Source: Psychrobacter sp. PG1
GTDB taxonomy: Bacteria; Pseudomonadota; Gammaproteobacteria; Pseudomonadales; Moraxellaceae
Direction: 5' to 3'
Length of the DNA: 64,000 nt
Assembly (NCBI RefSeq): GCF_014897815.1
Contig: NZ_JABUZG010000055.1
Span: 36,729 to 100,728 of the forward strand
The translations under genes were made by a program, and so were the position numbers. The first letter of the stretch is position 1; every line of letters starts with the position of its first letter. Below, in pieces: positions 3,997-59,479 of the stretch. Below the pieces are notes generated by a model, which saw only the letters and a list, made by a program, of their open reading frames with translations, searched no databases and had not been told where the DNA came from.

Positions 3997-5580
3997 TTAG
4001 CGATATTGCTGTAAAAATTCCATAAAATCTTCAGTTTCGGCTTTTTCAATCTCAGCTTGCTGTAATATCGATTTTTCTGCCAACACTTCATATTTGGCTT
4101 GGGTGTTTGGGCTAAGCGTTTGCTGTAATAAAGACTCACGATGCTGCTGCGCCAAGGTAAAGCCAAGCTGCCATAAGCTGCCTAAACGTTGACTATCAGA
4201 GTTGACTTGTGCTGAAATGGTCGATTCAGAATGTCCTGCTTTGCCTTGCATTAACGCGACTGCTGCACGGTAGTCGTTGCCACCATAATGAGCATCAAGC
4301 AGTGCTGCCAATGGCTGCATACGCTCTAAATGCATCAGCATCCAGCTCTCAAGCAGTTGCTCTTCGCCGTTGTTTATAATGTGTAAGCCTTCGCGGCGAC
4401 CTTCGTTTACCACGCGCTCAAGATTGATGGCTAGGGTCTCTTCTTCCTCAGGTAACAGATCAGGAGAGTCGCTCAGCAGACAGTACAGCGCCATGACCTC
4501 TAAGAAACAAGCGCTAGACAGACGAATACCGACATCGCTATAAGGGTCTAGATCGATTGCACGGAACTCAACATAGGCGATACCGCGGCGCTCTAATGCT
4601 TCGGTCGGTGTCTCGCCGCTCATCGCGATTTGTTTGGGACGAATAGGGCTATAGTATTCATTTTCTATTTGTAAAATATGATTGTTGATTTGGATAGGGT
4701 TGCCATCGGCATCATCTAAGCCAAGCTTGGCAAAGCTTTCGTGCGGAGTCTGAATCGCACGGCGCAGTCCATCGACATACTCTGGCAGATAGTTATAACG
4801 AATATCGAGCTGTTCTTGCACACTATTAGTATAACCAAGCTTGCCCATACGTAGGCTGGTGGCAGCAGGCTTATAGTAGGTTGAGTCGTTTAGTAGCTCT
4901 AAATCATGCTCGCGACCAGCTAAGAAACAAGGACAAACGCTAGGGCTAGCACCCAGTAAATACAGTACCAAACTGGTCAGACGCTTAAAGTTACGGATAA
5001 GCCCTAAGTACTTTTCGTTTTTAAATTCTGTCAGCGTTTGCGCTTGTGCAGCAGGTATTTCAGCTTGCCAAACTTCAAATAATCCGTCACCAAAAGACAA
5101 GTTATAATGTAAACCTGCAATCGTTTGCATGCGGCGACCATAGCGAATACCAAGCCCGCTACGGTATAGCGTCTTGAGCTTACCCGTATTAGAGCTGCCA
5201 TAATTAGCCAGTGGGATGTCTTCATCATTCGATGACAGCATACAAGGCATAGACAGCGGCCACATCAACTCACCTTCAGGCATGGCTTGATAGACCAATA
5301 CATGCAACTGACGCAGCATGTTTAGCGTCTCTTTTGGTGAGGTTTTAGGGTCAGTAATTAGCTCAAGTAGGCTTTCTGAATAATCAGTTGTGATAAACGG
5401 ATGGGTGAGCTTTGAGCCAAGTTTGGCTGGATGCGGCGTCTGAGCCAAGTAACCATCGGGTCTTACGCGCAGCCCTTCTTTTTCGATACCGCGGAGCATG
5501 CCCGTTAAATGCTGGCTATCAAACCAATTAGGAATGTCAAAATTCACAAAGCTACTCGCAAAATTACTCATAATAGTCAT
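3997..5580 (-). CDS. gshA: glutamate-cysteine ligase
   Basis: GshA makes gamma-glutamylcysteine from glutamate, cysteine and ATP, the first step of glutathione synthesis. The 527 residues match the proteobacterial type 1 enzyme (about 518 in E. coli): G-I-E-K-E-G-L-R near the N-terminus, T-D-Y-S-E-S-L-L-E-L-I-T and the H-Y-N-L-S-F motif. The C-terminus ends in a charged helix. The first two possible ATG codons give M-T-I-M-S; either could be used. It is upstream of dsbB in a likely redox operon. Confidence 0.93.
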   Translation of the reverse strand: MTIMSNFASSFVNFDIPNWFDSQHLTGMLRGIEKEGLRVRPDGYLAQTPHPAKLGSKLTHPFITTDYSESLLELITDPKTSPKETLNMLRQLHVLVYQAMPEGELMWPLSMPCMLSSNDEDIPLANYGSSNTGKLKTLYRSGLGIRYGRRMQTIAGLHYNLSFGDGLFEVWQAEIPAAQAQTLTEFKNEKYLGLIRNFKRLTSLVLYLLGASPSVCPCFLAGREHDLELLNDSTYYKPAATSLRMGKLGYTNSVQEQLDIRYNYLPEYVDGLRRAIQTPHESFAKLGLDDADGNPIQINNHILQIENEYYSPIRPKQIAMSGETPTEALERRGIAYVEFRAIDLDPYSDVGIRLSSACFLEVMALYCLLSDSPDLLPEEEETLAINLERVVNEGRREGLHIINNGEEQLLESWMLMHLERMQPLAALLDAHYGGNDYRAAVALMQGKAGHSESTISAQVNSDSQRLGSLWQLGFTLAQQHRESLLQQTLSPNTQAKYEVLAEKSILQQAEIEKAETEDFMEFLQQYR

Positions 5581-5804
5581 CTATTGTTATTTATTATGGC
5601 GGCTCAAAACACGACTGGCGTTTGACCATAATGAAGGTAAATATTGGATTAAGAATGCCGTCAGTTTAGCTCAAAGCTGCCCTGAAAACCACGGACAATT
5701 ACAAATACGATAAGCTTTACAGGCGCTCATTCCTCTTGATTTTAATAGGTATTTCAATAAAAAATTTTATGCACAGCGCGTTACTTTTTTCTAAAAAACG
5801 CATA

Positions 5805-5839
5805 AAACAAGAAGCATCTACCTACGAGATAGATGCTTC
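5805..5839 (-). terminator. Rho-independent terminator of erpA
   Basis: A perfect 10-bp stem GAAGCATCTA / TAGATGCTTC (5811-5820 and 5830-5839) with a 9-nt loop is followed on the minus strand by TTGTTTTATG. It lies about 80 nt past the erpA stop. Confidence 0.75.
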
Positions 5840-5920
5840 AAAAGTACGACGTTAAGCGGTTTATGATAGCGTTGACTAACGAGGAAGGTATCTTGATCAA
5901 AAGTCATGCGTCTCGCCAAC

Positions 5921-6301
5921 TTAAATAGAGAAGGATGAGCCACAGCCACACGTGGTGGTGGCATTTGGATTGGTGACGATAAAGCGTGCGCCCTCTAACC
6001 CTTCAGTATAGTCAACGGTAGAGCCTTGTAAATACTGATAGCTTAGTGAATCGACGACCAAGGTTACATCGTCATTGTCAAAATTGGCATCGTCTTCATT
6101 CAGCTCATTGGCGAAGTTAAAGCCGTAAGAAAAACCTGAGCAGCCGCCGCCCGTCACATAGACACGCAACATCAGATCGCTGTCGCCTTCTTCTTCACGT
6201 AGACGTCGCACCTTTTGTGCAGCGCTATCGGTTAAGCTTAAAACAGTTGGGTCTACTGGCTGGCTGGCGCTTGGATTAAATTGGTTGGCTGATTCGTTCA
6301 T
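5921..6301 (-). CDS. erpA: iron-sulfur cluster insertion protein ErpA
   Basis: ErpA is an A-type carrier that passes Fe-S clusters to apoproteins. The 126 residues contain the conserved L-T-D-S-A-A-x-K-V core, the first cysteine in [10 protein letters not shown], and the C-terminal pair C-G-C-G-S-S-F-S-I. All three ligands are present. The frame is open 31 codons further upstream, but the ATG at 6299-6301 has a good Shine-Dalgarno (GAGGTAG, 5 nt away) and begins the family's conserved region with a short variable N-terminus. It stands alone, not in an isc cluster, as usual for erpA. Confidence 0.92.
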
Positions 6302-6768
6302 ATCTACCTCAGTTGCTAGGATCAAATGCGGTCGTCCAGTTAGGGTTTGCAATGAAATAGTTGCAAATAAAGATACGCACGGCGTTTGATTCAATTGGGT
6401 GCTGTTATTATAGCGCTGCTATTGGTATGACTAATGGTGCATTATAAATATGATATCTGTGTCATTACAACGATTTGGTTGATAACGGGCACTTATCTCA
6501 TCGCAGTATATCATAATGGGGATATTGATTCGTTTGTCAAGAGTGACGCTACTGGCTGAAGGTGGCTGATTGATACTAGCGGTTATTATCCCCATAAACT
6601 CATGCTAAGAGAAAGACTTTTTGTGCGAATAAACACTTGGTTTTGAAATAGTTATTTAATCGTTTGCCTATGGGGCAAGCGTTTGAAATAATAGCCGCCA
6701 GTTAACATGCCAGATGTGTGTTTTTTATTGCCTTATATTTTATATTACTGTTGAGTTGAAGAGATTAT
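6302..6768. other. divergent intergenic region between erpA and yheS
   Basis: It carries the promoters for two divergent genes. A 9-bp inverted repeat ATGGGGATA / TATCCCCAT (6516-6524 and 6587-6595) encloses about 62 nt. No RNA gene was recognised. Confidence 0.45.
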
Positions 6769-8790
6769 ATGATCGAATTTAAAGACGTTGGTGTTCGCCG
6801 TGATGGTCGTGAGTTGTTTGCAGGGGCAAGCTTCCAGCTACATCCGGGCCACAAAGTTGGCTTGACGGGCAACAACGGCACCGGCAAATCTACCTTATTT
6901 GCCTTATTGTTGACGCGAATGGGCAGAGGAGATACCGAGGTCACGCTTGATAGAGGTGAAGTCAGTATTCCTGATAGCTGGCATGTGGCACACATGGCTC
7001 AGGAAGTCGGCGCTACAACGCAGTCTGCGATTGATTATGTATTGAGCGGTGATGAGCAGTGGTATGAGATTAATGCTTCTTTGAATGATTTGAGTAGCGT
7101 CAGTGATGAGCAGATCGGGGTATTGCATCAGCAGTTTGATGAAATTGATGGCTATCGTACGCCGACTAAAGCGGCCCAAATTATGGCAGGTCTTGGTTTT
7201 AATACCAGCCAGCATGAATTACCCGTAGAAGGGTTTTCGGGTGGTTGGCGCATGCGTCTAAACCTTGCCAAAACTTTGATGAGCCGTGCGGACTTAATGT
7301 TACTCGATGAGCCGACCAACCATTTGGACTTGGATGCGATCCTTTGGCTTGAGACATGGATCAATGCTTTTATGGGTCTCGTGATCGTCATCTCGCATGA
7401 CCAAGCATTCTTGGATGCGACTGTTGGTCATATTCTTCATGTAGAACAACAAAAAATCACGCTTTATACGGGTAACTATCAGCAATTTATTCGCACCCGT
7501 CATGAGCGTATGGCGCAGCAGCAGCAAGCCTTTGAGAAGCAAGAAGCGACCAAAGCACATTTGGATGACTTTATTCGTCGTTTCCGTGCTAAAGCCAGTA
7601 AAGCTAAGCAAGCACAAAGCCGTATCAAGCAGCTTGAGCGCATGGCTGAGCTGTCACCGATGATGGCGGACAACCCGTTCTCTTTCCGCTTTTATGAGCC
7701 AGCAAATATGAGCTCACCACTGATTGAGCTGACCAAAGCGGATATTGGCTATAGCGATACGCCACTTCTATATAATGCCAATGTGCAAGTAACGCCGGAT
7801 ACGCGTCTTGGCTTACTAGGTATGAATGGCGCAGGTAAATCAACATTGATTAAGGCATTGGTCGGTGAGCTTGGCGTATTAACAGGGACGTATCGTGTTT
7901 CGGATACCCTAAAATTAGGCTACTTTAACCAGCATCAAATGGATATCTTGGATGCCAAGGCAACACCGATAGAGATGTTGCGTCGTCTAGCTGGTAAAAC
8001 CTCTGATGCGATGTTACGCTCGTTTTTAGGCAGCTTTGACTTCCGCGGTGAGCGTATCGATACGCCGAGTGAGCTATTCTCTGGTGGCGAGCGTGCGCGT
8101 TTGACGCTGGCATTGATTGTTTGGCAACGTCCGAACGTTCTGGTACTCGATGAACCGACCAACCATTTGGACTTACAAATGCGCCAAGCGTTGACCATCG
8201 CCTTGCAAGGATTTGAGGGGGCAGTGGTACTGGTTTCGCATGATCGTGAGTTGATTGCTAACGTCTGTGATGAGCTGTTTTTGGTACATGATGGTCAAAT
8301 CGAGGAGTTCGATGGTGACATCAGCGACTACGGTAAGTGGCTGGCAGAAAAGCGTAAGCAAGAGAACTCATCAGATAAAAGTACCAGTAAGAAGAAAAGT
8401 AAAAAAGAGAGTAAGAAGTTCGTTTCACGTGAAACAGATAATGGTCAAGTGAGTAATAAAGCACCTGATAATTCATCAAAAATTAAAGCGACGACGCCTA
8501 CGCTTAGTAAAGATGCGCAGCGCAAATTGGCGGCTGAACAACGCAAACTCACCGCGCCTATTCGCCGTGAGATAGAAGAGATAGAAAAGGCATTGGCTAA
8601 AATTGATGGACAGCTCGTGACCCTTGAAGAAAAACTGGCTGATACGGATTTGTACGAAGAAGGTCGCAAGTCTGACTTGCTGTTATTACTTAACGAGCAA
8701 ACGGCATTGCAGCAGCAGCACAGTGACAATGAAGAAAAACTATTGCTTTTGATGACGACCTTAGAAGAAATGGAAGCGGGTTTTGAGTAG
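6769..8790 (+). CDS. yheS: ABC-F family ATPase YheS
   Basis: This is a soluble ABC-F protein with two ATPase domains and no membrane domain; family members act on the ribosome during translation. The sequence is collinear with E. coli YheS throughout. It has Walker A G-N-N-G-T-G-K-S-T (34-42) and G-M-N-G-A-G-K-S-T, signatures F-S-G-G-W-R-M-R-L and F-S-G-G-E-R-A-R-L, and two L-D-E-P-T-N-H-L-D motifs. The inter-domain linker is R-F-R-A-K-A-S-K-A-K-Q-A-Q-S-R-I-K. A Lys/Ser-rich linker (about 530-590) joins the second ATPase to a C-terminal coiled coil, and a parS-like palindrome lies in its DNA at 8421-8436. The 673 residues are slightly longer than in E. coli because of this linker. Confidence 0.92.
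   Translation: MIEFKDVGVRRDGRELFAGASFQLHPGHKVGLTGNNGTGKSTLFALLLTRMGRGDTEVTLDRGEVSIPDSWHVAHMAQEVGATTQSAIDYVLSGDEQWYEINASLNDLSSVSDEQIGVLHQQFDEIDGYRTPTKAAQIMAGLGFNTSQHELPVEGFSGGWRMRLNLAKTLMSRADLMLLDEPTNHLDLDAILWLETWINAFMGLVIVISHDQAFLDATVGHILHVEQQKITLYTGNYQQFIRTRHERMAQQQQAFEKQEATKAHLDDFIRRFRAKASKAKQAQSRIKQLERMAELSPMMADNPFSFRFYEPANMSSPLIELTKADIGYSDTPLLYNANVQVTPDTRLGLLGMNGAGKSTLIKALVGELGVLTGTYRVSDTLKLGYFNQHQMDILDAKATPIEMLRRLAGKTSDAMLRSFLGSFDFRGERIDTPSELFSGGERARLTLALIVWQRPNVLVLDEPTNHLDLQMRQALTIALQGFEGAVVLVSHDRELIANVCDELFLVHDGQIEEFDGDISDYGKWLAEKRKQENSSDKSTSKKKSKKESKKFVSRETDNGQVSNKAPDNSSKIKATTPTLSKDAQRKLAAEQRKLTAPIRREIEEIEKALAKIDGQLVTLEEKLADTDLYEEGRKSDLLLLLNEQTALQQQHSDNEEKLLLLMTTLEEMEAGFE
8421..8436. 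other. parS-like centromere site (ParB-binding palindrome)
   Basis: CGTTTCACGTGAAACA matches the widely conserved chromosomal parS consensus TGTTTCACGTGAAACA at 15 of 16 positions; only the outermost base differs. It lies in the low-complexity linker of yheS, where the protein tolerates variation (codons for F-V-S-R-E-T). ParB spreads from such sites, and SMC is loaded there. Binding is inferred, and no parA/parB is in the window. Confidence 0.75.
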
Positions 8791-58846: not shown

Positions 58847-59479
58847 TTAATGCGGTAGCACTTTTCGAAACGTGAGGCTGATGCGACCTGATTTCACAGT
58901 TTTGGTTTTTGTAATGGTATGCTTCCAAAAATCCTGCGTATCGCCATGCATAACGATAAGCTGACCGGACTCAAGATATAGCTCAACTTTGACGGGCTTA
59001 TTCTCTTGTCTAATAGTTTTATGCTTAAAAACAAATTTTCGCCTAGCACCGAGCGATAAAGAAGCAATAATCGGCTGCGCGCCCAGCTCTTTTTCATCGT
59101 CTGCATGATAACCCATGCCATCAGCACCAGAGGGATAGTGGTTAAGTAAGCAAGAATTAAAATCAACGTTGATACCACTGCTTGATAATTGCTGCTCAAT
59201 ATGTCGTTTTACGTGCAACATCTGCTTTGTCCATGGAATGGCTCGACGCGTCTGTCCAGAGTAATGATAACTGACATCGTGGTCACCCATCCAGACGATT
59301 TGGCGAGTGGTAACATGCGTTTTACCAAACAACGTCACGATGTCAGACTGCCAAGGTAGCTCGGTTAGTAAATTATTATACAGAGCGTTAGCCTCAAGAA
59401 TAACTATTCCTAAGTCATTGACCTGACCATCGTAAGGCAACAGATTGTCAGTCGGTGTAGGCGCAAAAAGGTCAGTCAT
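58847..59479 (-). CDS. AlkB-like 2-oxoglutarate/Fe(II) dioxygenase
   Basis: AlkB-type oxidative dealkylation repair enzyme. The iron triad is visible: H-A-D (G-Y-H-A-D-D-E) and a later His in F-W-K-H-T. The 2-oxoglutarate Arg lies in R-I-S-L-T-F-R. L-N-H-Y-P-S-G-A-D-G-M-G-Y-H fits the ALKBH2/3-like short bacterial group. The 210 residues are normal. The ATG at 59479 is preferred to the GTG just before it. It lies 17 bp after the alpha/beta hydrolase. Confidence 0.87.
   Translation of the reverse strand: MTDLFAPTPTDNLLPYDGQVNDLGIVILEANALYNNLLTELPWQSDIVTLFGKTHVTTRQIVWMGDHDVSYHYSGQTRRAIPWTKQMLHVKRHIEQQLSSSGINVDFNSCLLNHYPSGADGMGYHADDEKELGAQPIIASLSLGARRKFVFKHKTIRQENKPVKVELYLESGQLIVMHGDTQDFWKHTITKTKTVKSGRISLTFRKVLPH

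Follow-up and report, generated by a model that had tools for sequence, protein, structure and literature searches.

The palindrome CGTTTCACGTGAAACA at positions 8421..8436 (read on the + strand) of the 64,000-nucleotide window analysed, which is part of contig C55 of a draft Psychrobacter genome, is very probably a functional chromosomal parS site. It would be the outermost right-arm member of an origin-proximal array as far as C55 reaches. It lies within the yheS gene, and its DNA letters, beyond the encoded protein, look kept by selection. The assignment draws on sequence comparison for the site itself, the array and its location, the conservation, the DNA-level constraint and the presence of a parS-type ParB.

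In ParABS systems, parS is where ParB first binds before it spreads along the DNA; the resulting complex is moved by ParA, and SMC is recruited by ParB at origin-proximal parS (PMC7333895).

Results and Discussion

The 16-mer differs by one mismatch from the palindromic 16-bp parS consensus TGTTTCACGTGAAACA, and its inner 14 bases form a perfect palindrome. The original prediction of a 15-of-16 parS match in the yheS linker is therefore correct on the window sequence. The site is in frame with the gene at an offset of two: after the last base of the phenylalanine codon (TT)C follow GTT, TCA, CGT, GAA and ACA, giving F-V-S-R-E-T with VSRET as the full codons. The window copy carries a C at position 1; the end positions are variable across the genus, and the affinity of ParB for this copy may differ. 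One other match in the window, at 59205-59220, has three mismatches, for which 0.25-0.34 matches are expected by chance, and was dismissed as a further parS at this chance level.

The site-bearing gene (6769..8790, + strand) encodes an ABC-F ATPase of 673 aa. Its best NCBIfam match is PRK10636 with 693.6 bits, below the cut-off of 917, and the ribo_prot_ABC_F cut-off is passed (402.3 vs 380). We take yheS to be the name for a PRK10636-type protein, in agreement with the NCBIfam match. In an alignment of 129 yheS genes, the columns of the site-bearing rows delimit a variable C-terminal linker (approximately residues 526-600; 8344..8568, + strand), within which the nearly invariant VSRET codons occupy 8422-8436.

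A search by yheS gave 80 loci, of which 72 were titled Psychrobacter and 71 of these had a CDS; with the window added, 72 rows were compared. A site with at most two mismatches is present in 62 of the 72 (29 perfect, 30 with one and three with two mismatches). The ten rows without it form two side lineages, eight around P. phenylpyruvicus and P. lutiphocae and two around P. pygoscelis. Conservation in other Psychrobacter yheS genes, which the original prediction had named as a check, is therefore confirmed for most of the genus and fails in these two lineages. The 61 loci with the site have no second one with at most two mismatches within the flanks covered (up to 10 kb). Across 1.32 Mb of flank from 71 loci, four other sites occur, all of them 8.6-9.9 kb upstream in loci of the first side lineage that have no site in yheS.

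Six loci outside the 129-gene alignment (L075, L155, L157, L158, L164 and L190) were scanned as DNA: L190 has a site after the stop codon, and L155, L157, L158 and L164 have none. In L075 (Psychrobacter sp. WY6) the yheS frame is broken upstream of the site and the site itself is perfect; the break is likely a sequencing error, since the apparently identical genome G058 is 85% complete.

From the 99 genomes of the family set, yheS was taken for 54 that are not Psychrobacter; these include none from groups g3, g4, g6, g14 and g16 and leave out some genomes of g2, g5, g11 and g13. In group g7 the linker contains the site in five genomes, two of which appear to be Moraxella boevrei and M. macacae; a yheS match was not obtained for the sixth. 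These five genomes account for eight alignment rows, as L097/L146, L098/L145 and L101/L147 are apparent duplicate contigs. The record BMPS01000009.1 (L098) is titled Streptomyces cinereus JCM 3040 and carries a Moraxellaceae-type yheS; since its length (73,889) equals that of the g7 contig L145, the title looks wrong. None of the 17 g10 (Moraxella) genomes drawn has the site in yheS. A parS-like palindrome with one to three mismatches stands just past the yheS stop in all four g9 loci fetched, all three fetched of four drawn in g11, the single g8 locus and two of 18 in g15. Its start lies 7-61 bases past the stop in the nine cases measured in these four groups (loci L170 and L182-L190). It was found in none of six loci fetched from g2, g5, g12 and g13. 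For 102 of the 129 yheS proteins, kept after thinning at 98.5% identity, a quick tree was built without the linker; on it two changes account for the label "inside" and four for the three labels together. One gain of the intragenic site followed by losses and two separate gains are both compatible with this tree. Its absence from the ten Psychrobacter rows and from all g10 genomes drawn indicates that the yheS site is dispensable over longer times.

The codon statistics point to selection on the DNA. In the 62 site-bearing rows, GTT is used in 62/62, TCA for 61/61 serines, CGT for 58/58 arginines, GAA in 61/62 and ACA in 53/62, and the residues that follow VSRET vary widely. Among the other columns of yheS in which the same residue has a conservation of 90% or more, equal codon conservation is reached by 0/25 for valine, 0/26 for serine, 1/32 for arginine, 2/37 for glutamate and 2/32 for threonine; the test is restricted to the site-bearing rows, a selection that trims variation. 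Scored over its 15 bases together, the site comes 11th among the 669 such words of yheS, and the ten ahead of it all lie within the first 14 codons. P. aestuarii and a relative lack the preceding KSKKESKKF stretch but keep VSHET. In Moraxella boevrei the same linker contains TGTTCCACGTGGAACA, read as VPRGT, in which both half-sites are changed symmetrically and two residues are altered. Nearly invariant codons in a variable linker, together with this paired half-site change, argue for selection at the DNA level. The original statement that the bases are tolerated as codons is accordingly too weak, although the placement in the linker stands.

A requirement of the YheS protein for the VSRET peptide, with the likeness to parS as a by-product, would also account for the near invariance of VSRET in the site-bearing rows. 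However, the synonymous positions are nearly invariant too, less so only in the last codon. The residues shift to VSHET (encoded by TGTTTCACATGAAACA), VPRET or VPRGT where the DNA remains a parS variant, and rows without the site have no VSRET at that place. On alignment and codon statistics we rejected constraint at the protein level, which we consider highly improbable, in favour of a parS site kept as DNA.

The whole assembly (84 contigs, 3.49 Mb) was then searched, with chance expectations from an independent-base model and the reversed pattern as control. Fourteen sites with at most two mismatches were obtained, four on C38, four on C55 and six on C69, and none on the remaining contigs. 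These three contigs make up 306 of 3,486 kb, and approximately 1.3 such sites are expected by chance genome-wide. With three mismatches allowed, the whole genome yields 30 matches vs 18 for the reversed pattern, for which reason three-mismatch matches were not counted as sites. Seven of the 14 lie inside ORFs (two in recF, one each in yigZ-like, rsmB-like (below cut-off), ribE, mnmE and yheS genes), and the other seven lie outside complete ORFs of at least 80 aa.

The start of dnaA is at C38:1300. C38 and the beginning of C55 are collinear, in the same orientation, with bases 1-75,000 of the two-contig relative G043, where dnaA starts at 94 and the same yheS site is found at 67,241. Three C69 sites correspond in type and spacing to three G043 sites left of dnaA (6376 + 2092 vs 6361 + 2136 bases). 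All 14 sites can thus be placed at the origin via G043. From dnaA to the yheS site the distance is about 58 kb (57.9 kb), a synteny estimate in which the small gap between C38 and C55, unjoined in the draft, was judged from G043. Further out on C55 there is no site with at most two mismatches. The original prediction had taken the palindrome as a mark of proximity to the origin, and this held: the genome search and the mapping against oriC, set as a check, returned a 14-site cluster that includes the dnaA contig and is collinear with the origin region of G043, and the outcome of a region far from oriC with no parS nearby did not occur. Together with the conservation in relatives, the same cluster and collinearity support, at the level of sequence, the identity of the palindrome as parS. 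The yheS site in turn anchors C55 to the origin region.

The same arrangement is found in congeners. Sites with at most one mismatch are present in 60/60 genus genomes searched (own included); the reversed pattern gave none in the own genome and a single match in one (G023) of the 60. In 13 congeners assembled into 1-7 contigs, all 131 such sites lie around dnaA, with 6-13 per genome. Their span is -200 to +159 kb of dnaA on mostly rounded genome sizes (to 0.1 Mb), so that left-arm distances are possibly tens of kb too large; the -200 kb of G038 becomes -130 kb with the exact length. The distance between yheS and dnaA in the 13 is 36-106 kb, and ten of them hold a site with at most one mismatch in yheS. 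The remaining three are G031, whose two-mismatch form has its core disrupted, and G035 and G038, which lack a site in yheS. Two further genomes (G053 and G012) place 21 of 21 sites between -21 and +113 kb of dnaA.

This distribution also bears on the alternative that a different DNA-binding protein, perhaps one that regulates yheS locally, binds here to a palindrome centred on CACGTG. Such a protein might explain why a similar palindrome stays near yheS, just past its stop, in g9, g11, g8 and two of the 18 g15 genomes. It does not fit the repetition of the same motif around dnaA throughout the 13 congeners, nor the other copies in the own genome, whose spread over recF, the yigZ-like and rsmB-like genes, ribE, mnmE and intergenic DNA is the known distribution of parS. 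A promoter-linked copy was not seen either, since the flanks of the 61 site-bearing loci lack a second one. We regard this possibility as very unlikely. A chance match in the lysine-rich, AT-rich linker, conceivable for a single 16-mer in a window that also holds a chance-level three-mismatch match, was rejected as practically negligible, being contradicted by the conservation in yheS, by membership in the 14-site array and by counts of one match with at most one mismatch in the 64-kb window and ten in the genome, where 0.001 and 0.06 are expected.

Cognate ParA and ParB are both encoded. A chromosomal ParB of 381 aa lies beside parA and rsmG on contig C82 (parB 4287-5432, parA 5574-6365 and rsmG 6579-7295 of the locus L197, G000:C82:44000-54000), and a ParB over the cut-off is found in 60/60 genus genomes, own included. 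The C82 ParB matches Spo0J/ParB structures and contains the GERRWR motif. An arginine and a glycine align to R173 and G201 of Caulobacter ParB, which we take, together with the numbering offset, to be the residues that read parS rather than Noc sites. The ParB thus has the parS-type residues at R and G. T179 and A184, presumably two further Caulobacter ParB positions for parS reading, are replaced by L and Q, as they differ in other parS-binding ParBs aligned.

ParB proteins of the Psychrobacter/Moraxella group are long, with open frames of 346-428 aa vs 296-305 in g15 and g11; in the C82 ParB the domain match begins only after some 115 residues. The own genome, alone among the 60, also encodes a second, ParB-like protein (264 aa; G000:C3:6092-6616), probably on a plasmid.

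By analogy with the known systems, the C82 ParB would load on the yheS site as a CTP-dependent clamp, would then spread across yheS and its neighbours, and would help ParA, and probably SMC as well, to move and organise the origin region. The site is probably a functional loading site that is individually redundant, since P. aeruginosa needs only one of its four origin-proximal parS (PMC4368675).

Nine of the ten P. aeruginosa sites parS1-parS10 were predicted in coding sequence in the 2015 paper (PMC4368675), and parS3 and parS4 were called intergenic in a later review (PMC7022226). The Psychrobacter sites are of the same class of 16-bp palindrome, several of them near oriC, like those of P. 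aeruginosa, most of which are in genes (PMC4368675). Intragenic parS is already known in other bacteria, P. aeruginosa among them (PMC4368675), and the yheS site adds a case. P. aeruginosa parS works only within approximately 650 kb around oriC (PMC5098823), a zone in which the yheS site at +58 kb would fall. Consensus class and the usual origin-proximal position are likewise shared with the parS of Bacillus subtilis type bound by Spo0J/ParB (PMC4368675, PMC7333895). A difference lies in the half-site, which is TGTTCCAC in a perfect P. aeruginosa site and mostly TGTTTCAC or TGTTTCAT in Psychrobacter. Among the literature matches listed, mostly non-subscription, there was no report of chromosomal parS of Psychrobacter or Acinetobacter.

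The position of parB sets the family apart. In P. aeruginosa, parAB lies about 7 kb from oriC (PMC4368675), unlike the Moraxellaceae, where the terminus half carries parB, at 0.7-1.9 Mb from dnaA, in the 30 genomes measured. Expressed as a fraction of the half-chromosome, the distance is 0.72-0.92 in 13 Psychrobacter (rounded sizes), 0.75 and 0.82 in two more, 0.60-0.99 in 12 other Moraxellaceae and 0.77-0.91 in three more. For assemblies of several contigs the largest was taken to be the chromosome, and the best match was used for G065, G091, G143 and G134, which have extra weaker ParB matches; G109 gave neither a dnaA nor a parB match. In the close relative G043, parB is about 1.3 Mb from dnaA, and in the own draft it is on the separate contig C82. 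All nine loci examined in relatives show the order rsmG-parA-parB. No site with up to three mismatches was found in the 10 kb around parB at these nine loci or at the own parB. A report of parAB far from oriC in Moraxellaceae was likewise absent from the literature matches listed, again mostly non-subscription.

Conclusion

The yheS gene offers a clear example of a centromere-like site that overlaps coding sequence and constrains its codons across most of a genus.

The map positions of parB and of the parS array were computed directly; the direction in which the rsmG-parA-parB unit moved and an effect on gene dosage are what we infer. It is possible, though rather doubtful, that ParABS in the Moraxellaceae is spatially split, with a parS array kept at oriC by selection, also within genes such as yheS, and the rsmG-parA-parB unit in the terminus half. 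If so, ParB made from a late-replicating, low-dose locus would act on the earliest-replicating region. Faster growth would then lower the number of parB copies relative to those of parS, opposite to what is usual. That parAB and parS lie apart may be of more interest than the site itself, since the family would offer a natural way of testing whether ParB needs to be produced close to oriC.
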